DNA of 64,000 bases from Rhodopseudomonas palustris HaA2 (GTDB lineage Bacteria > Pseudomonadota > Alphaproteobacteria > Rhizobiales > Xanthobacteraceae): NCBI RefSeq assembly GCF_000013365.1, contig NC_007778.1:1860001-1924000 (forward strand), written 5' to 3'. The first letter of the stretch is position 1; every line of letters starts with the position of its first letter. The notes beneath the pieces are model-generated. The model was given only the letters and a program-made list of their open reading frames with translations. It did not search any database and was not told the DNA's origin. Below are positions 22,825 to 43,989 of this stretch, piece by piece. Both the position numbers and the translations under genes were made by a program.

Positions 22825-22943
22825 CGTTGCAGTTCCAATTTTGATCTGGATCAATTTTTGATGCGACAAAGACGCAACCGCAAGGCTAAACTGTCGACAA
22901 TCGGCGCTTAAATATTGTCCACCACGCCGAAACGGACCGTTTC
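22825..22943. promoter_or_regulatory. Divergent control region between the aldolase/ABC operon and gntR
   Basis: This 119-bp spacer holds TTGATC-TG-GATCAA at 22841-22854 and a second inverted repeat, GACAAT at 22896-22901 with ATTGTC at 22914-22919. GntR/FCD proteins often bind such short dyads in their own divergent promoter, so both are operator candidates. Confidence 0.5.
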
Positions 22944-28456: not shown

Positions 28457-28963
28457 CTATTTCAATCGTTCGAGCAGGCTGAGGAACAGCGTGCGCTCCT
28501 CCTTCGCCAATGGTGACAGCGTGGCCTTGGTGATCTCGTGCGCCACTGGAATCGATCGCTCGGCCAGGGCCGCACCTTCGGGCGTCAACGCCACGAGCAG
28601 GCGGCGTCCGTCTTCCGGATCCGGGCTGGTCTCCAGCAATCCGCGCTTCACCAGGCGCTCGACCACGCCCTTGATGGTGGCGGCATCCATCGCCGTGTGC
28701 CGGCCGAGCAGGTTCTGCGAGCACGGCCCGAGTTCGAGCAGCTTCGACAAGGCGGCCCACTGAGTCATCGTCAGATCCTCGCCCATGCGCCCCACGAAGA
28801 TGGTGGCATGACGCTGCAGCACCTGACGCAGCACGAAACCGACCTGGGCGTCGAGCAGATAGTGCGATGTGGACTTGCTCTTGCCGCGCCGCTTGTCCGT
28901 TACTTTCTTCTTACTCAACTCATGGCCCCGCTGCCCGTCCTGGTCACACCGCGAGATAAGCAT
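28457..28963 (-). CDS. MarR-family transcriptional regulator
   Basis: The 168-residue protein has a Lys/Arg-rich N-terminal tail and a MarR winged helix: TMTQWAALSKLLELGPCSQNLLGRHTA, then helix ATIKGVVERLVKRGLL and the wing DPEDGRRLLVALT. MarR proteins usually repress catabolic or efflux operons and respond to small aromatic acids. It overlaps the end of the ABC ATPase gene by 20 bases. The start is uncertain: a TTG at 28918 preceded by GGGG is an alternative. Because NicR, which controls nicotinate genes in Pseudomonas putida, is also a MarR protein, this regulator is a candidate for the shared operator seen at 37382, 37490 and 41813. Confidence 0.85.
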   Translation of the reverse strand: MLISRCDQDGQRGHELSKKKVTDKRRGKSKSTSHYLLDAQVGFVLRQVLQRHATIFVGRMGEDLTMTQWAALSKLLELGPCSQNLLGRHTAMDAATIKGVVERLVKRGLLETSPDPEDGRRLLVALTPEGAALAERSIPVAHEITKATLSPLAKEERTLFLSLLERLK

Positions 28964-29648
28964 CCCGGATTTCGGGGTGCGCCTCGAGTTCGTCGATGGT
29001 GCCGGAGAATCGAATTCGTCCCTTCTCGATAATATAGGCGCGATCGCAGATCAGCTTGGCAAAATGCAGATTCTGCTCGGAAATGACGATGCTGAGCCCT
29101 TCGCGCTTCATCGCCAGAATGGCGTCGGCCATCTGCTCGACGATCTTGGGCGCGAGCCCTTCGGAGGGTTCGTCCAGCAGCACGAGCGAGGGGTTTCCCA
29201 TCAGCGTGCGGCCGATACTGAGCATCTGCTGTTCGCCGCCGCTCATGTCGCCGCCGAGCCGCTTGCGCATTTCGCCGAGATTGGGAAACAGCGTGTAGAT
29301 CCGCTCCGGCGTCCAGGCGGCGACGCCGGGGCGGGCTTTCTGGCGGCCGACTTCGAAATTCTCCTCGACGCTCAGTTCGGTGAAGATCCGCCGGTCTTCC
29401 GGCACATAGCCGAGCCCGCGCCGCACGATCTCGTAGGACGGCAGCCGCGAGACGTCCTCACCTTCGAACGTCACTTTTCCCTCACGACGGGACACCAGCC
29501 CCACCACTGATCGGAAGGTCGTGCTCTTGCCGGCGCCGTTGCGCCCGAGCATGGCGACGACCTCGCCCTCGCCGACCGCGAAGCCGACGTCGAACAGGAT
29601 GTGGGCGGGCCCGTAGAAACTGTTCAGCTCAGAGACTTCGAGCTTCAT
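28944..29648 (-). CDS. Branched-chain-amino-acid-type ABC transporter ATPase (LivF-like)
   Basis: This 234-residue ATP-binding protein has Walker A GRNGAGKS, signature MSGGEQQ and Walker B LVLLDEP followed by SEGLAP, the latter typical of LivF. It pairs with the LivG-like ATPase whose stop overlaps its start codon (ATGA). It supplies ATP hydrolysis for the fused LivHM-type permease. HAAT-family systems also import aromatic and heterocyclic carboxylates, so the nearby nicotinate genes suggest such a substrate. Confidence 0.93.
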   Translation of the reverse strand: MKLEVSELNSFYGPAHILFDVGFAVGEGEVVAMLGRNGAGKSTTFRSVVGLVSRREGKVTFEGEDVSRLPSYEIVRRGLGYVPEDRRIFTELSVEENFEVGRQKARPGVAAWTPERIYTLFPNLGEMRKRLGGDMSGGEQQMLSIGRTLMGNPSLVLLDEPSEGLAPKIVEQMADAILAMKREGLSIVISEQNLHFAKLICDRAYIIEKGRIRFSGTIDELEAHPEIRDAYLAV

Positions 29649-30427
29649 TGCACGGCCTCCTTGCGATGCTTGGGATCGTAGAGCAGGCCGTCGCCGAGAT
29701 AGATCGCCTGCACGTGCGGATCGTTGCGGACCTGCTGCGGCGTGCCGCGCGCGACCAATTGCCCACGGTTCAGCACCATCACCTCGTCGGCGTGCTCGAA
29801 CACCACATCCATGTCGTGCTCGGTGAACAACACGCCGATGTCCTTGTCGCGGGCGATGCCGGCGGTGAGGCGCATCAGCTCGACGCGCTCTTTCGGCGCC
29901 ATGCCGGCGGTCGGTTCGTCCATCAGCAGCAGCCGCGGCTGGTTGGCGAGCGCCACGGCCAGCTCGAGCCGCTTCAGATCGCCGTATGCGAGTTCGCCGC
30001 ACGGCCGCTCGGCCTGCTCCTGCATTCCGACGAGGGCGAGGAGTTCGTTCGCTTCGTCGCGATGGCTCGCACCCGCATAGCCGACCATCGACCACAGCCG
30101 GCGGTGAAACGACAGCAGCGCGACCTGAATATTCTCGCGCACCGTCATCGACGAGAAGGTCGCAGTGATCTGGAAGGTGCGGCCGACGCCGCGCCGCCAC
30201 ACCGTGCGGGGCGGCAGGCCGACGATCTCCTCGCCGGCGAGCTTGATCGAGCCCACATCGGGCCGGATCTGGCCGTTGAGCATGTTGAAGCAGGTGCTCT
30301 TGCCGGCGCCGTTGGGGCCGATCAGCGCCAGGATTTCGCCGGGGCGCACGGCGAAGCTGACGTCGCGCACGGCATGAACTCCGGCGTAGGACTTCACCAG
30401 TCCTTTGACTTCGAGCAACGCGGTCAT
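29645..30427 (-). CDS. Branched-chain-amino-acid-type ABC transporter ATPase (LivG-like)
   Basis: This 260-residue ATP-binding protein has Walker A GPNGAGKST, the LivG-type RTFQ segment (GVGRTFQITATF) and Walker B LLLMDEPTAGMAP. The usual LSGG signature is replaced by LAYGDLKRLELA, as is common in LivG-like ATPases of this class. It overlaps both the permease stop upstream and the LivF-like start downstream. The ATG at 30427 is chosen; the open frame upstream lies within the permease gene. Confidence 0.93.
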   Translation of the reverse strand: MTALLEVKGLVKSYAGVHAVRDVSFAVRPGEILALIGPNGAGKSTCFNMLNGQIRPDVGSIKLAGEEIVGLPPRTVWRRGVGRTFQITATFSSMTVRENIQVALLSFHRRLWSMVGYAGASHRDEANELLALVGMQEQAERPCGELAYGDLKRLELAVALANQPRLLLMDEPTAGMAPKERVELMRLTAGIARDKDIGVLFTEHDMDVVFEHADEVMVLNRGQLVARGTPQQVRNDPHVQAIYLGDGLLYDPKHRKEAVQ

Positions 30428-32337
30428 TCGGCGGCCTCCATCTTGGCGATCCCGAGCGCGTCGGATTTGCCGGCCGGCTTCGGCCCGGCGCCGTTCGGCG
30501 CCGGCGGCCGGCGATGCCGCCAATCCTCGATGAAACCGACGATGCCCTTGGGCGCAGCCACCACCAGCAGCACGATGATCGCGCCGAGCACGAGCTTGGA
30601 GAGGTCGGTCTGGCTCATCAGCCAGATCGCCAGCGCCTTGTAGACGATCGCGCCGACCACCGCGCCCGACACCGTTTCGATGCCGCCGAGCAGCACCATC
30701 ACCAATCCGTCGACCGAGATCGGGATCGCCAGCGATTCCGGAAACACCGAGCCCTTGAGGAAGGCGAACAGCGCGCCGGCGACGCCGGCGAAGGTGCCGG
30801 CGACGATCAGCGCGGCCCACTGCACCGACTTGCGGTCGATGCCGATCGCCTCCGAGCGCAGCGTATTGTCGCGCGTCGCCCGCAGACCGAAGCCGAACGG
30901 CGAGAACACCAGCATCCGCAGCAGTGCGACGCCCGCGACGACCACGCCGAGCGTGAGCCAGAAGAAGCCTTGCGGGGTCGACGCCCAGGCCGAGGGCCAG
31001 ATCCCGAGAATGCCGTTGTCGCCGCCGGTCACCTCGACCCACTGGAACGCGATCGACCAGATGATCTGGGCGAAGGCCAGCGTCAGCATGGCGAAATACA
31101 CACCCGACAGCCGCACGCAGAACCAGCCCGACACCACCGCGCCGAGCAGGCCGAACAACGGGCCGACGAGCAGCGCGACCTCCATCGGGGCGCCGAGAAA
31201 CTTGACGGCGAACGCCGCGCCATAGGCGCCGAGGCCGAAAAACGCCGCGTGGCCGAACGATGCCAACCCGCCCACTGTCATCATGAAGTGCAGGCTGGCG
31301 GCGAACAGCACGAACACCAGGATCTCCGCGCCGACGCTCAACAGATAGTTGCCGGCGACCAAGGGCAGGCAGGCCGCGATGACGACGACGACCGCGGCGC
31401 CGATGCGCTCCCATTGCGACAGCGGCTTCCAGGGCCGGAACGAGATCCCGGCGCTGGCGCGGGCGCCGCGTTCGGCCTTGCCGAGCAGTCCGTAGGGCCG
31501 CACCACCAGCACCACCGCCATCACCAGGAACACGGCGATCAGCGAGATCTTCGGCAGCACCAGAATGCCGAGCGCGTTCAATTCCGACACCAGAACCGCG
31601 GCGATGAAGGCGCCGGTGACCGAGCCGAGCCCGCCGATCACCACCACCACGAACACCTCGACGATGATCGACAGGTCCATGTAGTGGGTCACGGTGGTGC
31701 GCGGGATCTGCAGCGCGCCGCCGAGCGCGGCGAGGAAGCAGCCGAGTGCGAACACGCTGGTGAACAGCCACTTCTGATTGACGCCGAGGCAGGCGACCAT
31801 GTCGCGGTCCTGTGTCGCGGCGCGCACCAGCACGCCCCAGCGGGTGCGGTGGAACAACAGCCACAATGCGCCGAGTACGACCGGACCGAGCACGATCAGC
31901 AGGATGTCGTAGGTCGGCACCAGGCGTCCGAACAGGCTGAAGGCGCCGGCGAAGCCGGGCGCGCGCGGCCCCATCAGATCGTCGGCGCCCCAGATCAGCA
32001 CCACGATGTCCTGTACCATCAGCGTCACGCCGAAGGTGGCGAGCAATTGGAACAGCTCGGGCGCGTGATAGATGCGGCGCAGCAGCACCATCTCCATCAG
32101 CGCGCCGAGCACCGCCACGATCAGGCTGGCGGCGAGCAGTCCGCCCCAGAAGCCGAGCGGGCCGGAAAAGCGGTCGGTCAGCGTGAAGGCGACATAGGCG
32201 CCGAGCATGTAGAACGCGCCGTGCGCGAAGTTCACGATGCGCGTGACGCCGAAGATGATCGAGAGCCCGGATGCGACCAGGAACAGCGACGCGGCGCTGG
32301 CGAGACCGCTGAGGGCCTGGACCAATATCAGTTCCAC
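30424..32337 (-). CDS. Fused LivH-LivM-type ABC permease
   Basis: The 637-residue protein joins two permeases that are usually separate. Residues about 1-290 match LivH (ASGLSIIFGVTRIVNFAHGAFYMLGAY; GLGSVTGAFIAA), a short linker rich in charged residues follows near residue 295-310, and residues about 315-610 match LivM (TVGGLASFGHAAFFGLGAYGAA; GIETVSGAVVGAIVYK). Some fifteen membrane segments are predicted by eye. It would form the whole channel in one chain, working with the LivG- and LivF-like ATPases encoded next and the binding protein encoded before it. Confidence 0.92.
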   Translation of the reverse strand: MELILVQALSGLASAASLFLVASGLSIIFGVTRIVNFAHGAFYMLGAYVAFTLTDRFSGPLGFWGGLLAASLIVAVLGALMEMVLLRRIYHAPELFQLLATFGVTLMVQDIVVLIWGADDLMGPRAPGFAGAFSLFGRLVPTYDILLIVLGPVVLGALWLLFHRTRWGVLVRAATQDRDMVACLGVNQKWLFTSVFALGCFLAALGGALQIPRTTVTHYMDLSIIVEVFVVVVIGGLGSVTGAFIAAVLVSELNALGILVLPKISLIAVFLVMAVVLVVRPYGLLGKAERGARASAGISFRPWKPLSQWERIGAAVVVVIAACLPLVAGNYLLSVGAEILVFVLFAASLHFMMTVGGLASFGHAAFFGLGAYGAAFAVKFLGAPMEVALLVGPLFGLLGAVVSGWFCVRLSGVYFAMLTLAFAQIIWSIAFQWVEVTGGDNGILGIWPSAWASTPQGFFWLTLGVVVAGVALLRMLVFSPFGFGLRATRDNTLRSEAIGIDRKSVQWAALIVAGTFAGVAGALFAFLKGSVFPESLAIPISVDGLVMVLLGGIETVSGAVVGAIVYKALAIWLMSQTDLSKLVLGAIIVLLVVAAPKGIVGFIEDWRHRRPPAPNGAGPKPAGKSDALGIAKMEAAE

Positions 32338-32380
32338 GGCGACGCCTTTCGTGCTGGAGGAGGAGCGGGTTGGGTCTGGT

Positions 32381-32406
32381 GTCCGCCGCTGATGTCAGCG
32401 GCGGAC
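32381..32406 (-). terminator. Hairpin between binding-protein and permease genes
   Basis: GTCCGCCGCTGA at 32381-32392 pairs perfectly with 32395-32406 in the 120-bp gap after the binding-protein gene. No T-tract follows. It probably stabilises the upstream message or attenuates permease expression, as at 20402. Confidence 0.65.
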
Positions 32407-32457
32407 GTTCGCAAGAGAGGAAGCAGCCGTGCGGGCGGCCTCATGCCGCCCCGGGCC

Positions 32458-33654
32458 TCAGTTCGCCGGACGCAGCTTGGCGGCCTCGGCCTCGGGCGGT
32501 AGATAGTCGGCGCCCTTCTTGAACTTGATGTCGGTCATGATGCCCTTGCCGTCCTTCTGCGTGGTCTTGCCGACATAGGCGCCCATCGTCGACTGATGAT
32601 CGCCGGCGCGGTAGACGACCGCGCCGAACGGGGTGTCGACCTTCAGGTTCTTCATCGCCTTGACCAGGCCGTCGGTGGAGTGATCGTCGGTGGCGGTCAG
32701 CACGGCGGCGATGGTCTTCACGGTGGCGTAGCCGACCACCGAGCCGAGCCGCGGATAGTCCTTGTTGAGCTGTTGGTAAGCGTCGAGGAAAGCCTGATGC
32801 TCCGGCGTGCTGATCGCGTACCAGGGATAGCCGGTGACGATCCAGCCCTCCGGCGTTTCGGTCTTCAGCGGGTCGAGATATTCCGGCTCGCCGGTGAGAT
32901 AGCTCACCACCGCGCGATCCTTGAACACGCCGCGGGTATTGCCCTCGCGCACCAGCTTGACCAGGTCGCCGGCGAAGGTGGCGTTGAGGATGGCGTCGGG
33001 CTTGGCGGCGTCGATCGCCTGCAGCACCGGGCCGGCGTCGATCTTGTTCAGCGGCGGCCATTGCTCGGCGACGAACTCGACGTCGGGACGCTTCTTGCTG
33101 AGAATCTCCTTGAACGCGGCGACGAACGACTGGCCGAATTCGTAGTTGGGCGCAATCGTCGCCCACTTCTTGGCCGGCAGCTTGGCGGCTTCCTCCGCCA
33201 GCATCGAGGCCTGCATATAGTTCGATGTGCGCAGCCGGAAAGTATAGTCGTTGCCCTTCGACCAGACGATGGCGTCGGTCAGCGGCTCGGCGGCGACGTA
33301 GAGCACCTTCTTCTGCTTGGCGAAGTCGGACAGCGCCAGGCCGATATTCGACAGGAAGCCGCCGGCGATCATCACCACGCCGTCGCGCGACACCAGCTCG
33401 TTGGCGGCGGTCAGCGCGTCGCCCGGCTTGCCGCCGTCGTCCTTGGTGATGACGACGAGCTTCTTGCCCTTGATGCCGCCGGCATCGTTGATCTGCTTCA
33501 GCGCCAGTTCCATGCCCTTGCGGTATGGCTCGGTGAAGCCGGGGAGTGCCGAATAGGAGTTGATCTCTCCCACCTTGATCTCGCCTTGCTGCGCATAGGC
33601 AGCGCCGGAGGCGAAAAGCAGTGCCGTCAAAGCCAGTCGTGCGACGTGTTTCAT
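32458..33654 (-). CDS. Branched-chain-amino-acid-type ABC transporter substrate-binding protein (LivK-like)
   Basis: This 398-residue periplasmic protein has a signal peptide (MKHVARLALTALLFASGAAYA, residues 1-21) and the type I periplasmic binding fold (IKVGEINSYSALPG; GMELALKQINDAGGIKGKKL; IAPNYEFGQSFV). Homologues bind amino acids, amides, urea or aromatic acids. Its gene lies 101 bases after the DUF1185 pair in the same direction as the 6-hydroxynicotinate reductase gene, so nicotinate, a hydroxylated derivative or a ring-cleavage product are candidate ligands. The start is fixed by the signal peptide. Confidence 0.92.
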   Translation of the reverse strand: MKHVARLALTALLFASGAAYAQQGEIKVGEINSYSALPGFTEPYRKGMELALKQINDAGGIKGKKLVVITKDDGGKPGDALTAANELVSRDGVVMIAGGFLSNIGLALSDFAKQKKVLYVAAEPLTDAIVWSKGNDYTFRLRTSNYMQASMLAEEAAKLPAKKWATIAPNYEFGQSFVAAFKEILSKKRPDVEFVAEQWPPLNKIDAGPVLQAIDAAKPDAILNATFAGDLVKLVREGNTRGVFKDRAVVSYLTGEPEYLDPLKTETPEGWIVTGYPWYAISTPEHQAFLDAYQQLNKDYPRLGSVVGYATVKTIAAVLTATDDHSTDGLVKAMKNLKVDTPFGAVVYRAGDHQSTMGAYVGKTTQKDGKGIMTDIKFKKGADYLPPEAEAAKLRPAN

Positions 33655-33755
33655 ACGCTCATGCCCTCTGTTTGAACCAACCTCAGCCACTCGTCGTCTA
33701 GATCCGTCGTCTTCACGCGAAGCGGTCGCCACTTCGCTCGAAAACGCAGTTTCTT

Positions 33756-34340
33756 TCAGCGCAATCCGTCTTCGCCCTTGATCTCGGCGGTCGTCAGTCC
33801 GCCGACGCGCGGCAGCGGTCGGCCGGAATCCGTGATGGCCACCGCCACCACGATCTCGTTGGCGCGCGGCGCATCCGCCACGCTCACCTGCATGCCGTCG
33901 AAATGGCTGCGGACGAAGGCCGCGTCCTTGTGCCCGAGCGGAATGTCCAGCTCGGCGCCGAGGCCGCCGCGTCGCTTCGACGAGGGGATCAGCGCCGCGC
34001 CCTTGCCCAGCACCTTGCGGACCGGCGCGCCCATTTTCGGGTGCAGCAAGGCTGCGGCGTGTTCGAGCTCGCCGTTCTCGCCGACCAGCGCGGCCTTGCC
34101 GTAGCTTTCGGCCTTGCCGCCGTCGATGCCGAGCGCGTCCACCGCCTTCTGCGCGAGCAACTCGCCGAGTTCTTCCCCGATCGCGATCAGCTCCGAGAGG
34201 TCCTCGACATAACGGCCGGCGAACGGATTTTCGATCACCGCGACCGCCGCCGCGCGCCGCGTCGGCGGCGTCACGGAACGTCCCATCTCCGTCAGCGTCT
34301 CTTCCACGACGACGACGATCTTGCGGATTTTCGCGCTCAT
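33756..34340 (-). CDS. DUF1185 ('amino acid synthesis') family protein, copy 2
   Basis: This 194-residue protein of PF06684 is a tandem paralogue of the next entry. Both share VIENPFAGRYV near the N-terminus, a central GKxAxVGxxGELEH block, RSHFDxMxV and the C-terminal end VGGLxxAEIKGEDGLR. The family name does not reflect a proven reaction; structures exist but the biochemical role is unknown to me. Its ATG overlaps the stop of copy 1. The two proteins probably form a complex or act on related substrates in the nicotinate pathway. Confidence 0.85.
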   Translation of the reverse strand: MSAKIRKIVVVVEETLTEMGRSVTPPTRRAAAVAVIENPFAGRYVEDLSELIAIGEELGELLAQKAVDALGIDGGKAESYGKAALVGENGELEHAAALLHPKMGAPVRKVLGKGAALIPSSKRRGGLGAELDIPLGHKDAAFVRSHFDGMQVSVADAPRANEIVVAVAITDSGRPLPRVGGLTTAEIKGEDGLR

Positions 34341-34921
34341 CGCAGCCCGTCCTCGCCCTTGATCTCCGCCGCGGCGAGTCCGCCGACGCGGGCGTGGACC
34401 CGCGGACCGGAGCTCATCACCAGCACCAGCGCGATCTCGTCGGCCTTGGGGCCGTCCGGCACGCCGACTTCCATCGCGTCGAAATGGCTGCGCACGTAGG
34501 AGGCGTTGACATGGGTCACCGGCACGTCGAGCCGTGTGCCCGGTCCGCCGACCTTCTTGGTCGATGGCACGATCGCCTTGGCGTCGCCGAGGATCTCGCG
34601 CATCGCGTAGCCGCCCGGGACGTGCCAGAGCGCGCCGTGCTCCAGTTCGCCGGCGGCGCCGACGATGGCGCCTTTGCCGTAGCCGTCGATGGATTTCGCG
34701 TCGCCGCCGAGCGCCTGCAGCAACTCGCCTGCGAGCGCCACGCCGAGCGGGGTCAGATCATCCATGAACCCGGCGATGTCCTGCACATAGCGGCCGGCGA
34801 ACGGGTTCTCGATCACCGCGATGATCGCGCCGCGCTTGCGCGGGGTGGCCGCCACCGGGCCGCCCTCGTGGAAGATCTCCTCGGTGATCAGGAGCTTCTT
34901 GCGGATTTTGACCTCAGGCAT
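34337..34921 (-). CDS. DUF1185 ('amino acid synthesis') family protein, copy 1
   Basis: This 194-residue protein has the same length and order of conserved blocks as copy 2, with clear sequence divergence between them. The ATG at 34921 is chosen because the conserved sequence begins there (MPEVKIRKKLLITEE) and because it overlaps the end of the UPF0280 gene by eight bases. The frame is open for 30 more codons upstream. Position between the UPF0280 and transporter genes of the putative nicotinate array suggests a role in metabolism of tetrahydro-6-oxonicotinate or later open-chain acids, but no reaction can be assigned. Confidence 0.85.
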   Translation of the reverse strand: MPEVKIRKKLLITEEIFHEGGPVAATPRKRGAIIAVIENPFAGRYVQDIAGFMDDLTPLGVALAGELLQALGGDAKSIDGYGKGAIVGAAGELEHGALWHVPGGYAMREILGDAKAIVPSTKKVGGPGTRLDVPVTHVNASYVRSHFDAMEVGVPDGPKADEIALVLVMSSGPRVHARVGGLAAAEIKGEDGLR

Positions 34922-35831
34922 CGGGTTGCTCTTGTTGTGGTTCGAAGGAAAGGAACGCCGCTGTGTCGCCGACGCTGGCGGTCTCGCCCTGCAAATGCAG
35001 GGCCGCGGCACAGATCAGTCCGCGCGACAGCAGCGCGCGTGCCACCGTCACGCCTGCAACCAGCGCTGCGTCGCGCTCGGCCGGGCCGAGGCGTGGCACA
35101 TGCCGGGTGACCTGCAGTGTACCCAGATCGCTGTCCGGTTGAAGCTCGTTGGCGGCTTCACGAACAATACCGCGATGGCCGGGCAGGTCGACCGCGTTGG
35201 CGACCACGGTCGCGGCAGCGTCAGCCATCGCGGCGGTGGGCGCGAGGATGGTCACCGCGTCGGCGATGCCGAGCGAGAAGCTGCGCCCGTGCCAGCCGCT
35301 GGTCGCCACGCCGCGCACCGGGCTGCTGGCATCGATCTCGGCGCGGCCGATCAGGCGCGGCTGGTCCGGGCGGTCGATCAACCCGACGGTGAAGCTTGCA
35401 TCCTGCGCCAGATGCACCGCGATATCGCCGCCATTGTTGACATAGGCGCGGGTGATGCCGGGGCAGACCAGCGCTTTCAGGATCTCGTCCGCGACCGCGC
35501 CCGCCACCGCCGCCATCGGCGTGATGAAAACTTCATCGGCGAACGGTGCCACCGCATCGGCCATGCGCTGTGCGACCGGGTGGGCCAGTGGCAGCGCGTC
35601 GCGTCCGGCGGGCTTTCGCAGCGCAGGCAGTTCGGCGCACAGCGCATCCAGCAGGCCGGCGAAGCGCTGCGCGGCGGCGGCATAAGCGTGCCGGACGGCG
35701 CGCGGGTCGCCGGTCGCCTCGATGATCAGGTCGATCGGGCCGTCCTGTAAGTGCAAGCGCCGGCCGTCCGCCAGCATCGCCGCCTGCGCTGCGCGTCCTC
35801 GGGTCGGGGTGAGGAGGTGCGGGGCGGCCAT
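34914..35831 (-). CDS. UPF0280 family protein (ApbE-like fold)
   Basis: This 305-residue protein resembles COG2122/UPF0280, which belongs to the same fold group as the FMN transferase ApbE. Visible blocks are ITPMAAVAGAVADEIL, AYVNNGGDIAVHL (similar to the N-x-GGD segment of ApbE) and SGWHGRSFSLGIADAVT. It starts three bases after the 6-hydroxynicotinate reductase gene ends. As I recall, the Eubacterium barkeri reductase carries covalently bound flavin, so a flavin-transfer or maturation role for this protein is a specific hypothesis. No biochemical function is known to me for UPF0280 itself. Confidence 0.85.
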   Translation of the reverse strand: MAAPHLLTPTRGRAAQAAMLADGRRLHLQDGPIDLIIEATGDPRAVRHAYAAAAQRFAGLLDALCAELPALRKPAGRDALPLAHPVAQRMADAVAPFADEVFITPMAAVAGAVADEILKALVCPGITRAYVNNGGDIAVHLAQDASFTVGLIDRPDQPRLIGRAEIDASSPVRGVATSGWHGRSFSLGIADAVTILAPTAAMADAAATVVANAVDLPGHRGIVREAANELQPDSDLGTLQVTRHVPRLGPAERDAALVAGVTVARALLSRGLICAAALHLQGETASVGDTAAFLSFEPQQEQPDA

Positions 35832-35834
35832 CGA

Positions 35835-37331
35835 TCAGCCGAAGAAACGCTTGGCCGCATTCGGAGCGAGCGGCCACGGGTTGTCGGAATGAGGCCCCAC
35901 GGTCTGCAGGCCGTCGTTCAGAGCGATCGACGACACCGGCCGAACCTCGGCCATGTGACCGCCGAGCTCTTCGTAGTCCGACAGCCGCAGCGTGAACTCG
36001 ATCGGCGCCACGAGAGCGGGCGTCGGCACATAGCCGAAGGCGTTCTCCGGCATCTTGGTGACGTCGACCATCAGGGTGATGCCGCCGCCGGGATAGACAT
36101 AGACCGGCGCGCCGCCGCAGGTGACATAGGTCAGCGCGTCCTTCACCGAATGCGTCAGTCGCACCGGATTTTCCGTGACGCCCGCGCGCAGCGAGCCGCC
36201 GGCGCCGGCCATGAACAGCACGGTGGAGAGCGCCGGCTCGCAATTGTCCTTCACGCGCTGCGACAGGGCCGCGAGCTCCGCAGGCATCTCCTTCTGGCGG
36301 GGAGAGAGCGTTTCGTCGAGTTCGTAGTAGGCCGCGTGTTCGCCGGTGGTCGAGATGAAGTACAGCCGCAGCCCGGGCCAGGCGACCTTGCGGTCGAACG
36401 GGCCGAGGATCGACAGTGGATCGGAAATGTTGGTGCCGCCCCAGCCGGTGCCGGGCTCGGCGACCTGGAAGTAGCGGCCGGGCGTCGAACGCCGGCCCTT
36501 GATCTTGATGCCGGTGTCGGGCACGCCGAGCACCTTGCCGGCCTGGTGTTCCGACAGCACGCCGGTGATGTGATCGTCGACCACCACCACGTCGTCGACG
36601 AGGCCGAGCCATTGCTTGGCGAACATGCCGATCGTGGCGGAGCCGCAGCCGACCCGCATCCGCTCTTCCTTGACGCCGTTGACGATCGGAGGCTGCCCGG
36701 CCTGCACGACGACGGTCGAGCCGCCGTCGATGGTGAGTTCGACCGGCTTGCCGTTGCACAGATCGAGCAGGGCCTCGCAGGTGACGCGGCCTTCCTTCTT
36801 GCTGCCGCCGGTGAGGTGATGCACGCCGCCGAGCGACAGCATCTGCGAGCCGTATTCGGAGGTGGTGACGTGGCCTACCGCTTCGCCCGACGCGCGCACC
36901 GTGGATTGCTCGGGGCCGAGGAAGCGGTCGGTGTCGATCTTCACCTTGACGCCGCAATAACTGAAGATGCCCTCGGTGACGACCGTGACCATGTCGACGC
37001 CGTCGACTTCAGAGGAGACGATGAACGGCGCGGGCTTGTAGTCCGGATAGGTCGTGCCGGCGCCGATCGCGGTGACGAAGGTCTCGGGCGGCGCGATCAG
37101 TTGGCCGTCCCAGGAGCCGTCGCGGTGAAACGGAACGACGGTACCGCCGTGCGCCAGCGCGCGATCGAGCACGATGTGCGGATCGACGCGAACCAGGTCG
37201 CCGTCGTGATTGGCGTAGCGATCGCAGGCGCCGCTCATGCCGGGCTTGATGTAGCACATCACCGGACAGGCATCGCAGCGAATCTTGGCGTCGCTCGCTT
37301 TGTCCGTCCCGGGAATGGTTTCGTCGGCCAT
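35835..37331 (-). CDS. hnr: 6-hydroxynicotinate reductase homologue
   Basis: This 498-residue protein starts with a cysteine cluster (Cys19, Cys22, Cys26, Cys36) suited to an iron-sulfur centre, and has further conserved blocks EGIFSYCGVKVKIDTD and RVGCGSATIGMF. I recognise it as the family annotated 6-hydroxynicotinate reductase, which in Eubacterium barkeri uses reduced ferredoxin to turn 6-hydroxynicotinate into 1,4,5,6-tetrahydro-6-oxonicotinate. The identification is strongly supported by the divergent nicotinate hydroxylase genes and the enamidase, which catalyse the steps before and after. It is the first gene of the long minus-strand array. A probable promoter and operator lie 50-100 bases upstream. 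Confidence 0.85.
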   Translation of the reverse strand: MADETIPGTDKASDAKIRCDACPVMCYIKPGMSGACDRYANHDGDLVRVDPHIVLDRALAHGGTVVPFHRDGSWDGQLIAPPETFVTAIGAGTTYPDYKPAPFIVSSEVDGVDMVTVVTEGIFSYCGVKVKIDTDRFLGPEQSTVRASGEAVGHVTTSEYGSQMLSLGGVHHLTGGSKKEGRVTCEALLDLCNGKPVELTIDGGSTVVVQAGQPPIVNGVKEERMRVGCGSATIGMFAKQWLGLVDDVVVVDDHITGVLSEHQAGKVLGVPDTGIKIKGRRSTPGRYFQVAEPGTGWGGTNISDPLSILGPFDRKVAWPGLRLYFISTTGEHAAYYELDETLSPRQKEMPAELAALSQRVKDNCEPALSTVLFMAGAGGSLRAGVTENPVRLTHSVKDALTYVTCGGAPVYVYPGGGITLMVDVTKMPENAFGYVPTPALVAPIEFTLRLSDYEELGGHMAEVRPVSSIALNDGLQTVGPHSDNPWPLAPNAAKRFFG

Positions 37332-37381: not shown

Positions 37382-37407
37382 GCAGTTTGTATGTATACTA
37401 ATGAAAA
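37382..37407 (-). promoter_or_regulatory. Nicotinate-cluster operator motif, site A, over the hnr promoter
   Basis: Read on the minus strand, this 26-bp stretch matches site C (41813-41838) at 22 of 26 positions; the shared core is GTnTACAnACAA after TTTTCATT. It overlaps a possible -10 (TTCATT, 37405-37400) placed 17 bp after TTGACT (37428-37423), 50 bp before the hnr start. A repressor-type operator is likely. Confidence 0.7.
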
Positions 37408-37482
37408 GCGGGACCCGATCCAAGTCAAGCATAAGGAATGGGCAGCGTCTGCCCAAACCATCATCGCACTGCAAAACGGCGC

Positions 37483-37512
37483 TTGACGTATTTTATTGGT
37501 GTAGAAACAATC
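37483..37512 (+). promoter_or_regulatory. Promoter and operator motif, site B, before the nicA-like gene
   Basis: TTGACG at 37483-37488 and AACAAT at 37506-37511 are spaced by 17 bp, a fair sigma-70 promoter. The stretch 37490-37512 matches site C at 19 of 23 positions, so a regulator bound here would cover the promoter. Confidence 0.65.
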
Positions 37513-37624
37513 ACGACAGCGAGGTTGCCACGAATGCAGGTATCGGACGTGCCGGGACGAACTGAGTTTGCAGTGCACACTGTCCGAACCGGTCACGTGC
37601 CGTTTGCTGCAAGGCACAATTGAC

Positions 37625-38158
37625 ATGGCGTCTTCGGCTCTTACCGGCGAACCCGTGGTGCTGACCGTCAACGGCACGACGTGCAGTGTCGATCTGCCCC
37701 GCGACACCAAGCTGATTTATGTGCTGCGCAATGATCTCGGTCTCAACGGTCCGAAGTTCGGCTGCGGGCTCGGCGAATGTGGTGCGTGCACGGTGCTGAT
37801 CGACGGCGTTGCGGCGCGCTCCTGCGTGGTGACGCTCAGAACCGTCGAGGGGCGCTCCGTCACGACGCTGGAGGGCTTGGGCGAACTCACTGCATTGCAC
37901 CCGGTGCAGGCCGCGTTCATCGCCGCGCAGGCGGCGCAGTGCGGTTACTGCCTCAACGGCATGATCATGACCACGGTGGCGTTTCTCGCGCGCAACCCGG
38001 CGCCGACGCTCGAGCAGGTGCGCGAGGCGTTGCGCTACAATCTGTGCCGCTGCGGCACCCATGTGGAAATCATGCGCGCCGTCATGGCCGCCGCCGGCGT
38101 GCGCGCGATCGAGGACGGCGTCGGCGCAGATGATGTCGCGATGAGCGCTCCGCGATGA
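37625..38158 (+). CDS. nicA: Nicotinate hydroxylase small subunit, two [2Fe-2S] clusters (NicA-like)
   Basis: This 177-residue protein has the plant-ferredoxin cluster Cys47, Cys52, Cys55, Cys67 (GCGLGECGACTVL) and the helical-domain cluster Cys106, Cys109, Cys141, Cys143 (CGYC, CRCG). It passes electrons from the molybdenum site to the haem-bearing large subunit. As in Pseudomonas putida NicAB, it would hydroxylate nicotinate at C6 with water as oxygen source. The ATG at 37625 is chosen; a TTG at 37568 in the same frame has little support. Its stop overlaps the start of the large-subunit gene. Confidence 0.87.
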   Translation: MASSALTGEPVVLTVNGTTCSVDLPRDTKLIYVLRNDLGLNGPKFGCGLGECGACTVLIDGVAARSCVVTLRTVEGRSVTTLEGLGELTALHPVQAAFIAAQAAQCGYCLNGMIMTTVAFLARNPAPTLEQVREALRYNLCRCGTHVEIMRAVMAAAGVRAIEDGVGADDVAMSAPR

Positions 38159-41100
38159 GTGAACCGACGCCGGCGCCGAAGGACCTGCTTGCTCGCACGG
38201 GCACGCTTGCCGTGTTGCGGCCGTCGCAGCACGTCAAGGGCCTGGTGCCGACGGCGCCGCCGCCGGAAGGCGCGCTCGACCTGTTCCTGTTTCTCGACGA
38301 TTCGGGTCGGGTGCTCGCCTTCAACGGCCATGTCGATCTCGGCACCGGCATCCGCACCGCGCTGGCGCAGATCGTGGCGGAAGAACTCGACGTGTCGTTC
38401 GCCGCCGTCACCATGGTGCTCGGCCACACCTCCGGCACGCCGAACCAGGGCGCAACCATCGCCAGCGACAGCATCCAGGTCTCGGCGCTGCCGCTGCGCA
38501 ACGCTGCGGCGCAGGCGCGGCATCATCTGATCGCCCTGGCCGCGGCAGAACTCGAACTGCCGCCGAACGATCTGGCCGTCACCGACGGCGTCGTGCATCC
38601 GCGCGGCGGCGCCAATATCGGCGTGTCCTATGCGTCGTTGCTGCAGGGCCGCACCGACCGGCTGTTGCTCGCCGAGGGTGTGGCGGTGAAGCCGGTGGCC
38701 GAGCATCGCATCGTCGGTCAGCGCATCGCGCGCTCGGATATTCCGGCCAAGGCGACCGGCGACTTCGTCTATGTGCACGACGTGCGCGTCCCCGGCATGT
38801 TGCACGGCCGCGTGGTGCGGCCGCCTTATGCCGGAATCGATGCCGGCGACTTCATCGGCGCCAGCCTGATCGGCGTCGACGAAACCTCCGTCGCGCATAT
38901 TCCGGGTGTGGTCGCGGTCATCAGCATGGGCGACTTCGTCGGCGTCGTCGCCGAGCGCGAGGAGCAGGCGGCCGAAGCCGCGCGCGTGTTGAAGGTGGAA
39001 TGGAAGCCGCCGCCGCCGCTGCCGGATCTCGATGATCTTGCCACGGCGCTGCGCGCCAACCCGGCGACCACGCGGACGCTGCACGACAAAGGCGACGTCG
39101 ATCGCGCCCGCGCCGACGCCGCGGTGCCGATGGACCGCAGCTATGTCTGGCCGTATCAGATGCACGGCTCGATCGGCCCGTCCTGCGCGGTGGCGGACGT
39201 CCGCGACGGCGCCGCCACGATCTGGTCCGGCACGCAGAATCCCTATCCGCTGCGGCTCGATCTCTCGGTGCTGCTCGGCATCCCCGAGTCCGATATCGAG
39301 GTGCTGCGGTTTGAAGCTGCCGGCTGCTACGGCCGCAACTGCGCCGACGACGTTTCTGCGGATGCGGCGCTGCTGTCGCGCGCGGTGGGGCGGCCTGTCC
39401 GCGTCCAACTGACCCGCGAGCAGGAGCACGCCTGGGAGCCGAAGGGCGCGGCGCAACTGATGGAGATTTCCGGCGGGCTGAACGCCGACGGCAGCCCGGC
39501 CGCGTATGATTTCGCCACGCGCTATCCGTCGAATGCGGCGACGACGCTGGCGCTGCTGCTGACCGGGCGCGTGCCGGCGAACAATCCGGTGTTCGAGATG
39601 GGCGATCGCACCGCGATCCCGCCTTACGCCTACGACAACATCCGCGTTAAGGTGCACGACATGGCGCCGATCGTGCGCGCGGCGTGGCTGCGTGGCGTCT
39701 CGGCGCTGCCGAATTCGTTCGCGCATGAGAGCTATATCGACGAACTCGCCGCCGCGGCCGGGGTCGATCCGGTTGAGTATCGGCTGCGCTATCTGCACGA
39801 CCCGCGCGCGGTCGATCTGGTCAAGGAAGTCGCCGCGCGCGCCGGCTGGGCGCATCGCACCGGCCCGCGCCAGGAAGTCGTCGATGGCGACGTCGTGCGC
39901 GGGCAGGGCATCGCCTATGCGCTGTACGTCCACTCCAAATTCCCCGGCTACGGCGCGGCGTGGTCGGCGTGGGTCGCCGATGTCGAGGTCAACAAGGCGA
40001 CCGGCGACGTCGCGGTGAAGCGCGTCGTGGTCGGTCAGGATTCCGGGCTGATGATCAATCCCGCCGGGATCGAGCATCAGATCCACGGCAACGTCATTCA
40101 ATCGACCAGCCGCGTGCTGAAGGAACAGGTGAGCTTCACCGGCACCGCGGTGGCCGACAAGGAATGGGGCGCGTACCCGATCCTCACCTTCCCGGACGTG
40201 CCGGTCATCAACGTCGTGCTGATGCCGCGCCCGAACGATCCGCCGCTCGGCAGCGGCGAATCCGCCTCGGTACCGTCGGCGGCGGCGATCGCCAATGCGA
40301 TCTTCGATGCCACCGGGGTGCGGCTGCGCGAGCCGCCATTCACGCCGGAGCGGGTGCGGGCCGCGCTGGGCCATCCGATGCTGCCGCCGCCGCCCGCGCC
40401 TGCGCCGAAGAAGCGGTCGTGGTTGGCGCTGGCCGGCGCGGCGCTGGTCGGCGCGCTCGGCATGGCGACGGTGGCGCTGCCGATCCGCGGTGCCATTGCG
40501 CCGATCGCGCCGCCCGATCCGGCGAGCTTCTCCGCCGAGATGATCTCGCGCGGACGGCAGCTCGCCGCGCTCGGCGGCTGCGCGGTGTGCCACACCGAGA
40601 TCGGCGGCGCGACCAATGCGGGCGGCCGCCCGGTCGAGACTCCGTTCGGCACGGTGTACTCCACCAACCTCACGCCAGATCCGGAAACCGGCATCGGCCG
40701 CTGGTCCTACGCGGCGTTCGAGCGCGCGATGCGCGAGGGCATCGCCCGCGACGGGCGCCATCTCTATCCGGCGTTTCCCTACGCCTCGTTCACACGCACG
40801 AGCGATATCGATCTGCAGGCGCTGTACGCCTATCTGATGACGCAGACGCCGGTGAAGGCGCCGACGCCCGAGGCGCGGATGGCGTTTCCGTTCAATCTCC
40901 GGCCGCTGATGGCCGGCTGGAATGCGCTGTTTCTGCGCACCGGCCAGATGCAGGCCGACCCCGTCAAAGCGCCGCAATGGAATCGCGGCGCGTATCTGGT
41001 CGAGAGCCTCGGCCATTGCGGCGCCTGCCACACGCCGCGCAATGCACTCGGTGCCGAACAGGCGCGGACCGCGTATCTCAGTGGCGGCGTCGTCGACGGC

Positions 41101-41706
41101 TGGCACGCCCCGGCGCTGAACGCGCTCTCCAGTGCGCCGATTCCGTGGACGGAGGCCGAGCTGTTCTCTTATCTGCGCACCGGGTTCTCGCAGTTCCACG
41201 GCACGGCGGCCGGGCCGATGGCGCCGGTGGTGGAGCAACTCGCCGCGCTGCCGGATGCCGACATCCGCGCCATGGCGACCTATCTGGCGTCGTTCGCGCC
41301 GCCGGCCGACGAGGCGCCCGCCGCCCGCGCCGCCGCGCTGCAGGCCGCGGCGACGGCGACGCTGCGGCCGCTGGATTCGCTCGGCGGCAGGCTCTACGAG
41401 GGCGCCTGCGCCTCCTGCCACAGCGACGACGGGCCGACCCTGTTCGGCGTGCGCCCGGCGCTGGCGCTCAACACCAACGTTCACGCCGCGGACCCCGACA
41501 ATCTGATTAGGGTCATTCTAGACGGAATACCTAGTCCGGCGGCGGCCGAACTGGGGGATATGCCCGGGTTCCGCCACAGTTTCGACGATAACCAGATCGC
41601 GGCGCTGGTGACTTATCTCCGCGCCTCCTTCGCCCCCCAGGCGCCCGCCTGGGGCGGCGTGGAACAAACGGTGGCGCGCCTGCGCGCCCACCGAGGCTCC
41701 CACTGA
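38155..41706 (+). CDS. nicB: Nicotinate hydroxylase large subunit: molybdopterin domain fused to tri-haem cytochrome c (NicB-like)
   Basis: The 1,183-residue chain, near the length of Pseudomonas putida NicB, has an N-terminal xanthine-dehydrogenase-type molybdopterin region (residues about 30-740) with the catalytic glutamate in GSGES (Glu702). A membrane segment follows (about 756-778), then a cytochrome c domain with three CxxCH haem sites at Cys809 (CAVCH), Cys955 (CGACH) and Cys1085 (CASCH). Electrons from C6 hydroxylation of nicotinate would leave through the haems to the respiratory chain. This layout separates it from the FAD-linked anaerobic enzyme. Other N-heterocycle hydroxylases (for example isoquinoline) share the fold, but the reductase and enamidase neighbours favour nicotinate. 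Confidence 0.87.
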   Translation: MSEPTPAPKDLLARTGTLAVLRPSQHVKGLVPTAPPPEGALDLFLFLDDSGRVLAFNGHVDLGTGIRTALAQIVAEELDVSFAAVTMVLGHTSGTPNQGATIASDSIQVSALPLRNAAAQARHHLIALAAAELELPPNDLAVTDGVVHPRGGANIGVSYASLLQGRTDRLLLAEGVAVKPVAEHRIVGQRIARSDIPAKATGDFVYVHDVRVPGMLHGRVVRPPYAGIDAGDFIGASLIGVDETSVAHIPGVVAVISMGDFVGVVAEREEQAAEAARVLKVEWKPPPPLPDLDDLATALRANPATTRTLHDKGDVDRARADAAVPMDRSYVWPYQMHGSIGPSCAVADVRDGAATIWSGTQNPYPLRLDLSVLLGIPESDIEVLRFEAAGCYGRNCADDVSADAALLSRAVGRPVRVQLTREQEHAWEPKGAAQLMEISGGLNADGSPAAYDFATRYPSNAATTLALLLTGRVPANNPVFEMGDRTAIPPYAYDNIRVKVHDMAPIVRAAWLRGVSALPNSFAHESYIDELAAAAGVDPVEYRLRYLHDPRAVDLVKEVAARAGWAHRTGPRQEVVDGDVVRGQGIAYALYVHSKFPGYGAAWSAWVADVEVNKATGDVAVKRVVVGQDSGLMINPAGIEHQIHGNVIQSTSRVLKEQVSFTGTAVADKEWGAYPILTFPDVPVINVVLMPRPNDPPLGSGESASVPSAAAIANAIFDATGVRLREPPFTPERVRAALGHPMLPPPPAPAPKKRSWLALAGAALVGALGMATVALPIRGAIAPIAPPDPASFSAEMISRGRQLAALGGCAVCHTEIGGATNAGGRPVETPFGTVYSTNLTPDPETGIGRWSYAAFERAMREGIARDGRHLYPAFPYASFTRTSDIDLQALYAYLMTQTPVKAPTPEARMAFPFNLRPLMAGWNALFLRTGQMQADPVKAPQWNRGAYLVESLGHCGACHTPRNALGAEQARTAYLSGGVVDGWHAPALNALSSAPIPWTEAELFSYLRTGFSQFHGTAAGPMAPVVEQLAALPDADIRAMATYLASFAPPADEAPAARAAALQAAATATLRPLDSLGGRLYEGACASCHSDDGPTLFGVRPALALNTNVHAADPDNLIRVILDGIPSPAAAELGDMPGFRHSFDDNQIAALVTYLRASFAPQAPAWGGVEQTVARLRAHRGSH

Positions 41707-41786
41707 TCGTCGTCTTTCCCTTCAGGTTGCCCGATAAATCGGCGCGATGTGCCTGAAATGTCCGCGCGGCACGGGCGCTCGCCGCG

Positions 41787-41838
41787 TTGACAGGGGGCGG
41801 GCTGCGATCCTATTTTCATTCGTGTACAAACAATCTGC
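41787..41838 (+). promoter_or_regulatory. Promoter and operator motif, site C, before the ferredoxin-NADP reductase gene
   Basis: TTGACA at 41787-41792 and TATTTT at 41811-41816, spaced by 18 bp, form a good sigma-70 promoter. The operator-like stretch 41813-41838 starts within the -10 and resembles sites A and B. It lies 74 bp before the GTG start. Confidence 0.7.
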
Positions 41839-41912: not shown

Positions 41913-42686
41913 GTGAGCAATCTGATGGAAGAGCGCGTTCTCTCCGTTCGCCACTGGACCGATCGTCTGTTCAGCTTCACCACCACCCGCGAGGCCGGCT
42001 TCCGGTTCAGGAACGGTGAATTCACCATGGCCGGCATCAGGGTCGACGGCCGCCCGCTGCTGCGCGCCTATTCGGTGGCGAGCCCGAACTACGAAGAGAC
42101 GCTGGAGTTCTATTCGATCAAGGTGCCGAACGGGCCGCTGACCTCGCGCCTGCAGCATCTCAAGGAAGGCGACACCATCATCGTCGGACGCAAGGCGACC
42201 GGGACCCTGGTGATCGACAATCTGCGTCCGGGCGCGACGCTGTATCTGCTCGCGACCGGCACCGGGCTCGCTCCGTTCCTGTCGATCATCCGCGATCCCG
42301 AGACCTACGAGCGGTTCGAGAAGATCGTGCTGGTGCACGGCTGCCGGCAGGTGGCCGAGCTGGCCTACGGCGAGTCGATGGTGGCTGCGCTGCAGGACCA
42401 CGAGTTCCTCGGCGACGACGTCAAGGCCAAGCTGATCTACTACCCGACCGTCACCCGCGAGCCGTTCCGTCATCAGGGACGGATCTCGAAACTGATGGAC
42501 AGCGGTCAGCTCTACAGCGACATCGGCCTGCCGCCGCTCGACAAGTCGCGCGATCGCGTGATGCTGTGCGGCTCCACGCTGATGATGGGGGATTTGAAGA
42601 GCCGTCTGGCCGAGCTCGGCTTCGAGGAAGGCAACCACGGCGAGGCCGGCGACTTCGTGCTCGAGAAATCCTTCGCCGAACGCTGA
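41913..42686 (+). CDS. fpr: Ferredoxin-NADP(+) reductase
   Basis: The 257-residue FAD enzyme has the flavin-binding segment RAYSVAS, the nucleotide-binding GTGLAPFLSIIRD and the C-terminal tail ending EKSFAER typical of bacterial subclass I Fpr. It moves electrons between NADPH and ferredoxin. The GTG at 41913 has GGAG at 41902-41905; this start gives the usual family length. It sits between the nicotinate hydroxylase and enamidase genes and shares their putative operator. I infer that it supplies reduced ferredoxin for 6-hydroxynicotinate reductase. A general oxidative-stress role is the alternative. Confidence 0.92.
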   Translation: MSNLMEERVLSVRHWTDRLFSFTTTREAGFRFRNGEFTMAGIRVDGRPLLRAYSVASPNYEETLEFYSIKVPNGPLTSRLQHLKEGDTIIVGRKATGTLVIDNLRPGATLYLLATGTGLAPFLSIIRDPETYERFEKIVLVHGCRQVAELAYGESMVAALQDHEFLGDDVKAKLIYYPTVTREPFRHQGRISKLMDSGQLYSDIGLPPLDKSRDRVMLCGSTLMMGDLKSRLAELGFEEGNHGEAGDFVLEKSFAER

Positions 42687-42743
42687 GTGATTTCGGCGAC
42701 ACGACGTCAAAGCTGTTTTCAAGCGCCGTGCAGCCGCCTACAA

Positions 42744-42763
42744 TTCGTTAGCTTGCAAACGAA
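42744..42763. promoter_or_regulatory. Inverted repeat upstream of the enamidase gene
   Basis: TTCGTT and AACGAA flank an 8-bp spacer, 29 bp before the start codon. It shares ATTCGT and CAAAC with site C but differs in spacing, so it may be a variant of the same operator or a separate one. Confidence 0.4.
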
Positions 42764-42792: not shown

Positions 42793-43989
42793 ATGGCTCA
42801 CGACGCCGCCGCGCCCACGGGACCGACCAAGCTCGTCATTCGCAACATCGGCCTCTTGATCAGCGGTGACCTCGACAAGCCGATCCTCGATGCCGACACC
42901 ATCGTTGCGGAGAACGGCAAGATCTCCGCGATCGGTCGGCTGAAGGACGTCGACACCGAAGGCGCGACCACCACCGTCGATGCGGGTGGCGCTGCGGTCA
43001 CCCCGGGCCTGATCGACAGCCACGTCCATCCGGTGGCGGGCGACTGGACGCCGCGGCAGAGCCAACTCAACTGGATCGACTCCTCGCTGCACGGCGGCGT
43101 CACCACCATGATCTCGGCCGGCGAGGTGCACTATCCCGGCCGGCCGCGCGACGTCATCGGCATCAAGGCGCTGGCGATCACCGCGCAGCGCAGCTTCTCC
43201 GCCTTCCGCGCCAGCGGCGTGAAGGTCCATGCCGGCGCTCCGGTGATCGAGCACGAGATGGAAGAGAACGACTTCAAGGAACTCGCCGCGGCCGGCGTCA
43301 AGCTGCTCGGCGAGATTGGGCTCGGCGGCGTCAAGGACGGACCGACCGCGAAGAAGATGGTGGCGTGGGCGCGCAAATACGGCATCCAGTCCACCATCCA
43401 CACCGGCGGCCCGTCCATCGCGGGCTCCGGGCTGATCGACAAGGACGTGGTGCTGGAAGCCGGCACCGACGTGATCGGCCACATCAACGGCGGCCACACC
43501 GCGCTGCCCGACGGGCAGATCCGCTGCATCTGCGAGGGCTGCAAGGCCGGGCTCGAGCTGGTCCATAACGGCAACGAGCGCTCGGCGCTGTACACGCTGC
43601 GGATCGCGCGCGAGATGGGCGATCTCCATCGCGTCATTCTCGGCACCGACGGCCCGGCCGGCTCCGGTGTCCAGCCGCTCGGCATCCTGCGGATGATTTC
43701 GCTGTTGTCGTCGCTCGGCGATCTTCCCGCCGAACAGGCGTTCTGCCTCGCCACCGGCAACACCGCGCGGATGCGCGATCTCGACTGCGGCCTGATCGAG
43801 GTCGGCCGCGTCGCCGATTTCGTGATCATGGACGCGGCCCAGCACTCGGCCAGTTCGTCGCTGCTGGAAAGCGTCCGCCTCGGCGATCTGCCGGGCATCG
43901 GCATGACCATCATCGACGGCATCGTGCGCAGCGAACGCTCCCGCAACACCCCGCCGGCGACGCGACTGCCGAGCATCGTCAAGGCCTGA
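42793..43989 (+). CDS. ena: Enamidase (cyclic amidohydrolase of nicotinate catabolism)
   Basis: The 398-residue protein is a metal-dependent amidohydrolase with the ligand pair His77-X-His79 (DSHVHP) and blocks that I recall from Eubacterium barkeri enamidase: LHGGVTTMISAG, PGRPRDVIGIKALAIT, HINGG and SRNTPPA near the end. That enzyme opens the ring of 1,4,5,6-tetrahydro-6-oxonicotinate to 2-formylglutarate with release of ammonia. GGAGAA lies nine bases before the ATG. Genes for the later steps from 2-formylglutarate are not seen in the window. The hnr and nicAB neighbours make the assignment stronger than sequence resemblance alone. Confidence 0.85.
   Translation: MAHDAAAPTGPTKLVIRNIGLLISGDLDKPILDADTIVAENGKISAIGRLKDVDTEGATTTVDAGGAAVTPGLIDSHVHPVAGDWTPRQSQLNWIDSSLHGGVTTMISAGEVHYPGRPRDVIGIKALAITAQRSFSAFRASGVKVHAGAPVIEHEMEENDFKELAAAGVKLLGEIGLGGVKDGPTAKKMVAWARKYGIQSTIHTGGPSIAGSGLIDKDVVLEAGTDVIGHINGGHTALPDGQIRCICEGCKAGLELVHNGNERSALYTLRIAREMGDLHRVILGTDGPAGSGVQPLGILRMISLLSSLGDLPAEQAFCLATGNTARMRDLDCGLIEVGRVADFVIMDAAQHSASSSLLESVRLGDLPGIGMTIIDGIVRSERSRNTPPATRLPSIVKA

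Follow-up and report, generated by a model that had tools for sequence, protein, structure and literature searches.

MarR-type repressors of nicotinate catabolism are already known. NicR of Pseudomonas putida KT2440 is described in PMC10269826 as a repressor of this kind acting on the nicC and nicX operons. BpsR of Bordetella, in the passages of PMC6837509 devoted to it, is a MarR repressor of nicotinate degradation that is relieved by 6-hydroxynicotinate, held by four residues (Tyr15, His23, Arg26 and His32), and its exact recognition sequence is described there as unclear. A gene cluster for the three initial steps of nicotinate breakdown, which pass through tetrahydro-6-oxonicotinate, was drawn for Azorhizobium caulinodans, Bradyrhizobium japonicum and Rhodopseudomonas palustris HaA2 in the 2012 SG-6C paper (PMC3511419), where the legend of Figure 4 names the HaA2 cluster. 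Here we examine a 64-kb window of the R. palustris HaA2 genome (positions 1,860,001 to 1,924,000 of contig NC_007778.1 in NCBI RefSeq assembly GCF_000013365.1), which is the whole stretch of DNA analysed and very probably holds that same gene cluster. Four copies of a 20-bp inverted repeat lie in front of its genes hnr, nicA, fpr and ena. We are fairly confident, from the comparisons below, that they are the operators of one MarR repressor that would block these four promoters until relieved by a nicotinate metabolite.

As far as its description goes, NicR resembles the regulator proposed here in being a MarR-type repressor of nicotinate catabolism, but its targets are operons of the oxidative pathway. 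BpsR also serves the oxidative pathway (nicC, nicE), whereas the cluster in the window would serve the reductive route. In the openly accessible literature, outside which the papers on the NicR operator lie, we found no account of the operator, the target set, the MarR group or the regulation of the cluster. The words MarR and ferredoxin are absent from the main text of PMC3511419, and the passages of it that were examined do not describe regulation. The relevant passage of PMC5343134 treats regulators of nicotinamide adenine dinucleotide (NAD) synthesis and in that of PMC7057948 nicotinate appears as the precursor of an inducer; neither is about the operator. For a pathway known at the level of its gene cluster, the present analysis predicts a precise operator and a set of targets. 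It links a ferredoxin-NADP reductase to this pathway, in which the enzyme might supply electrons for the reductase step, and sets the regulator apart from the BpsR type by clade, by a pocket residue and, as far as tested, by operator. The motif can also be used to look for further targets.

Four copies of an inverted repeat

The original prediction held that the same operator-like motif, with a one-sided GTnTACAnACAA core, stands in front of three promoters, before hnr, nicA and fpr. The sequence identities behind it were reproduced, with positions 37382–37407 (minus strand) matching 41813–41838 (plus strand) at 22 of 26 bases and 37490–37512 matching 41813–41835 at 19 of 23. Both exceed the level reached in 60 first-order Markov surrogates of the window, because the best surrogate match was 19 for the 26-mer (in two of the 60) and 17 for its first 23 bases (in three of the 60). 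The shared unit is an imperfect 20-bp inverted repeat, TTYRTTnGYnnRCnAAYRAA, in which the copies align in register (Table 1), instead of a one-sided core. The copies before hnr, nicA and fpr are present, and the number of promoters is four, as a copy before ena had been missed. This fourth copy, which surfaced at 42742 when the first copy was used as the query of a scan, has no mismatch to the pattern, is self-complementary at 16 of 20 positions and has its 3' end 29 bp ahead of the ena start. The four copies also have the four highest scores in the window with a position weight matrix built from relatives, the next being 2.7 (copy 4 read shifted) and 2.5.

Conservation at orthologous loci

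The pattern was derived from the four window copies, ahead of any relative. The hnr loci were the best 80 of 544 relatives and were taken with 10-kb flanks. The sites used to train the matrix came from loci L020–L099 and differed from the pattern at no more than one position, and counts in these loci therefore lean on it; the family and phylum genome scans and loci L164–L203 stand outside the training set, although some of these are close kin. The score threshold for a site was 13 in the locus, per-gene and fpr/ena counts and 17 for the labels of the tree.

With at most one mismatch, the pattern occurred 105 times in the 80 loci, 94 of these around the start of a cluster gene (up to 400 bp upstream or 60 bp inside it), and eight half-permuted patterns gave 0 to 2. 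A site scoring at least 13 was found in 79 of the 80 hnr loci, whereas six matrices with permuted columns gave such sites in 0 to 6 loci. When upstream regions were counted gene by gene (including the window and omitting regions under 300 bp), such a site was present before hnr in 72/80, nicA in 60/62, fpr in 36/42 and ena in 40/45, many of the nicA sites being shared with hnr through the hnr–nicA intergenic region. The corresponding figures for genes internal to the row were 0/80 for the ApbE-like gene, 0/78 for the AA_synth gene AAs1, 3/68 for the gene of the transporter binding protein and 8/70 for marR. Copies with two mismatches at the nicA position are also found in several Rhodopseudomonas, Xanthobacter and Azorhizobium relatives. 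A lack of conservation before orthologous genes had been named in advance as the result that would speak against a shared operator, and the motif is instead kept over many genera.

The fpr loci of 40 of 41 relatives also hold ena, with both starts within 900 bp. The motif lies between the two genes in all 29 divergent pairs, and both genes have a site scoring at least 13 in seven of the 11 other pairs. This proximity to ena and the shared motif in relatives argue that fpr belongs with the pathway, as had been suggested.

Each of the four window copies overlaps core promoter elements or comes directly after them. A sigma-70-like promoter had been claimed at each of the three copies then recognized, and a consensus scan bears this out for nicA and fpr; it reported none upstream of hnr, where a TTGACT can be read. 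Where a region has a site, TTGAC lies at −28 to −23 in 70 of 72 cases for hnr and in 34 of 36 for fpr. The positions of the copies at the promoters would fit steric repression.

Specificity in the HaA2 genome

Random occurrence across the genome, the other unfavourable result named in advance, was not observed. The three best matches to the pattern in the 5.33-Mb genome (0, 1 and 1 mismatches) all lie inside the cluster, and copy 4 is the only place without a mismatch. The nicA copy has two mismatches, a level reached by nine other places in the genome, and so it is not distinguishable genome-wide when taken alone. At up to three mismatches there are 115 places, as against 94 for the reversed pattern, meaning that most are due to chance. 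Among the matches listed, three outside the window score at the level of the weaker copies, namely two places with three mismatches at 254855 (20.6) and 302955 (18.5) and one with two mismatches at 4728222–4728241 (L013:1501–1520; 24.6). The last is about 210 bp ahead of a SnoaL-like gene (named by eye). It was not counted as a further target, the site being kept in one of four same-genus relatives (19.5), with scores of 7.7, 4.0 and −4.0 in the others.

Association of the motif with the MarR regulator

A stricter, exact form of the motif was found in 36 of 119 family genomes, and its reversed control in none. A relative of the MarR encoded at 28457 (E 1e-20) was present in 53 of the 119 and Hnr in 34. 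The MarR relative is present in every one of the 36 exact-motif genomes, and 32 of them hold Hnr. The co-occurrence of motif and MarR gives a Fisher p of about 9e-18, a value that overstates independence because the genomes are related. Two of the four motif genomes without Hnr (G027 and G071) have the motif 5–7 kb from the MarR gene, and the remaining two have it on a different contig. Genomes G005 and G079, which hold Hnr without the exact motif, have sites of 25.2 and 21.7. When 398 genomes were drawn from the phylum, the exact motif was found in 20 of the 43 with the MarR and in two of the 355 without it.

Loci without hnr point the same way, as L184, L185, L190 and L191 hold MarR relatives (47–52%) and an ATP-binding cassette (ABC) transporter binding protein together with motif copies of 32.6 to 33.5. 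In five loci with marR apart from the row (four Bosea-type and one Methylobacterium assembly), the centre of a copy lies about 21 bp ahead of marR, whose start in these loci is extrapolated from homology. Where an hnr locus had no marR in reach, marR was found elsewhere in six of the seven genomes tested; the test covered seven of the 11 such loci (not L078, L079, L089 and L090) plus L031, which has marR. The seventh, L094, an Acidobacteriaceae metagenome assembly that may be incomplete, had neither the MarR nor the motif. The combined co-occurrence evidence makes the MarR the likely binder of the motif and favours the gene at 28457, which the original prediction had put forward. The single regulator that it assumed is supported by the shared motif at the cluster promoters and its conservation in relatives.

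Some of these loci have further features. The genes near the copies in L184 and L190 include members of the enoyl-CoA hydratase, short-chain dehydrogenase and alpha/beta hydrolase families. In L164, a MarR of the same group (56–57% identity) comes after an ABC transporter and a gene of the isochorismatase family, two motif copies lie ahead of the transporter, and there is no hnr within 20 kb. L166 has a similar MarR and two motif copies. In L183, another locus without hnr, a copy (bases 10038–10057, score 22.4) separates nicA-related hydroxylase genes from a divergent marR relative (about 46%). The hnr relatives in G095 and G086 were each reported as a match with one internal TGA.

Comparison with BpsR and the structure 2nnn

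The window MarR contains a MarR winged-helix domain (PF01047, 45.2 bits against a cut-off of 24.6). The predicted operators, judged from sequence, also agree with the inverted repeats of some 20 bp that MarR-family proteins use at their target promoters. The nearest solved structures are 2nnn, a probable transcriptional regulator (E 3.1e-43), followed by BpsR (6pcp/6pco). The recognition-helix stretch of 2nnn, TAMDAATIKGVVERL, is identical to that of the window MarR, but 2nnn has a Tyr at the His32 position. Of the BpsR residues around 6-hydroxynicotinate, three (Tyr15, Arg26 and His32) are kept in all 70 MarR sequences, from 69 hnr loci and the window, whereas the fourth, His23, is replaced by Phe in all 70.

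In a tree of 65 of the 109 MarR rows and two solved structures, BpsR and six YHRH rows formed a clade (100/99) that excluded the window protein, with a bootstrap that had not settled. These six BpsR-type loci have nicA relatives, and five of them have no site scoring at least 13. Among 39 further MarR loci, 27 read YFRH, and of these 23 have a site of at least 17, one a site between 13 and 17 and three less. Another four of the 39 have Tyr at position 23, and a site of at least 17 is present in three of these; two others with His at 23 that are not BpsR-like at the other positions are without the motif. A broader interpretation, possible though in our judgement rather doubtful, is that a MarR group spread over the Alphaproteobacteria uses one operator for several pathways, these being the reductive nicotinate route and the hnr-less clusters that pair an ABC transporter with other enzymes. 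The missing His23 contact would then go with another effector, for instance nicotinate or tetrahydro-6-oxonicotinate.

Proposed regulation and alternatives

In the model that we infer, a dimer of the MarR (28457–28963) would repress nicotinate catabolism by the reductive route, which leads from nicotinate through 6-hydroxynicotinate to tetrahydro-6-oxonicotinate. With substrate absent, a dimer would occupy each inverted repeat of 20 bp, covering or flanking the −10 region, and would keep RNA polymerase off the promoters of nicA, fpr, ena and the row that begins with hnr and runs through the ABC transporter genes to marR. When nicotinate is taken up, the dimer would bind one of the pathway metabolites (6-hydroxynicotinate being the likeliest) and release the DNA. 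As marR is last in the hnr row, the repressor would rise with induction if co-transcribed, closing the loop.

Several observations weigh against this model. Copies 2 and 4 have lower scores than copies 1 and 3, related genomes were counted as independent, and the reversed control pattern occurred in five of the 398 phylum genomes. The exact motif is missing from 17 of the 53 MarR-bearing family genomes; of eight that were inspected, five have a site of at least 21 (L170, L188, L189, L190 and L191), and L171, L192 and L193 are without a site scoring at least 13. One BpsR-type locus, L180, has a site of 15.9, in AT-rich sequence. The effector may be 6-hydroxynicotinate, as in BpsR, and is made uncertain by the Phe in place of His23.

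The similarity of the copies could in principle be chance or a repeated element without a regulatory role, and the nicA copy, with its two mismatches, is no better than nine other places in the genome. Given that 22/26 tops all 60 surrogates and that the same promoters are conserved over many genera with controls near zero, we regard this as next to impossible; the orthologous loci contradict it. It is improbable, too, that the operator belongs to a different DNA-binding protein, whose gene might lie outside the cluster, with the MarR merely travelling along. Of the 22 phylum genomes with the motif, two lack a MarR at E 1e-20, MarR binding to the motif is predicted from sequence, and the window encodes a GntR-type regulator at 22944–23660. 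Against this, each of the 36 family genomes that carry the exact motif also has the MarR relative, and the motif lies near the MarR gene in hnr-less clusters and just before marR in five loci. The GntR gene itself was set aside, as it had no match in the 80 loci, where 10-kb flanks would be too short to reach it if gene order is kept. Some MarR-family proteins are activators, and the MarR might act at these sites as an activator or dual regulator. We consider this a little less probable still, since every window copy overlaps core promoter elements or sits immediately downstream of them, a placement typical of repression. Repression by the MarR at all four promoters is the explanation that we favour.

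Genes and features of the cluster

The gene content resembles a nicotinate catabolic cluster, with hnr, an ApbE-like gene, two AA_synth genes, the ABC transporter genes and marR in a row on the minus strand, and the hydroxylase subunits, fpr and ena on the plus strand (Table 1). The hnr protein had no Pfam or NCBIfam match. The ApbE-like protein is presumably the one also named UPF0280. The ABC transporter is a possible nicotinate importer; PMC3511419 has the wording 'putative nicotinate ABC transporter'. Among the 20 window open reading frames scanned with profiles, marR encodes the sole transcription factor.

Table 1. Predicted operator copies, promoter elements and genes in the window (score, position weight matrix score)
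Feature	Position	Strand	Sequence	Score	Remarks
Operator copy 1	37386..37405	−	TTCATTAGTATACATACAAA	32.9	Before hnr; sequence as on minus strand; covers expected −10 region
Operator copy 2	37492..37511	+	TTTATTGGTGTAGAAACAAT	20.1	Before nicA; between and over promoter hexamers; weakest copy
Operator copy 3	41815..41834	+	TTCATTCGTGTACAAACAAT	31.1	Before fpr; begins in last two bases of −10-like hexamer
Operator copy 4	42744..42763	+	TTCGTTAGCTTGCAAACGAA	21.8	Before ena
Likely −35 box of hnr promoter	37423..37428	−	TTGACT		Read from sequence; 23 bases before copy 1
Promoter-like element	37483..37511	+	TTGACG-17-AACAAT		Before nicA; consensus scan
Promoter-like element	41787..41816	+	TTGACA-18-TATTTT		Before fpr; consensus scan; ends at start of copy 3
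Promoter-like element	42716..42744	+	TTTTCA-17-TACAAT		Before ena; consensus scan; ends at start of copy 4
marR, MarR-family regulator	28457..28963	−			Ends row begun by hnr; Pfam MarR 8.6e-12; proposed repressor
Branched-chain-amino-acid-type ABC transporter	28944..33732	−			Binding protein, permease, two ATPases
Two AA_synth proteins	33756..35011	−			PF06684
ApbE-like protein	34914..35831	−			PRK04334
hnr, 6-hydroxynicotinate reductase-like	35835..37331	−			Name from original prediction and cluster in PMC3511419, not from comparison with the E. barkeri enzyme
Hydroxylase [2Fe-2S] subunit	37568..38158	+			nicA of original prediction; Pfam
Hydroxylase molybdopterin subunit	38155..41706	+			With cytochrome c domains; Pfam
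fpr, ferredoxin-NADP+ reductase-like	41913..42686	+			NCBIfam PRK10926, 1.1e-45, 155.8 bits, under curated cut-off of 390
ena, amidohydrolase	42793..43989	+			Pfam amidohydrolase; enamidase by pathway context

Outside the cluster, TTGATCTGGATCAA, which we take to be an FNR/FixK-like box, is found at 22841–22854, at the start of a minus-strand open reading frame (class II aldolase-like, by eye) and upstream of the GntR gene at 22944.

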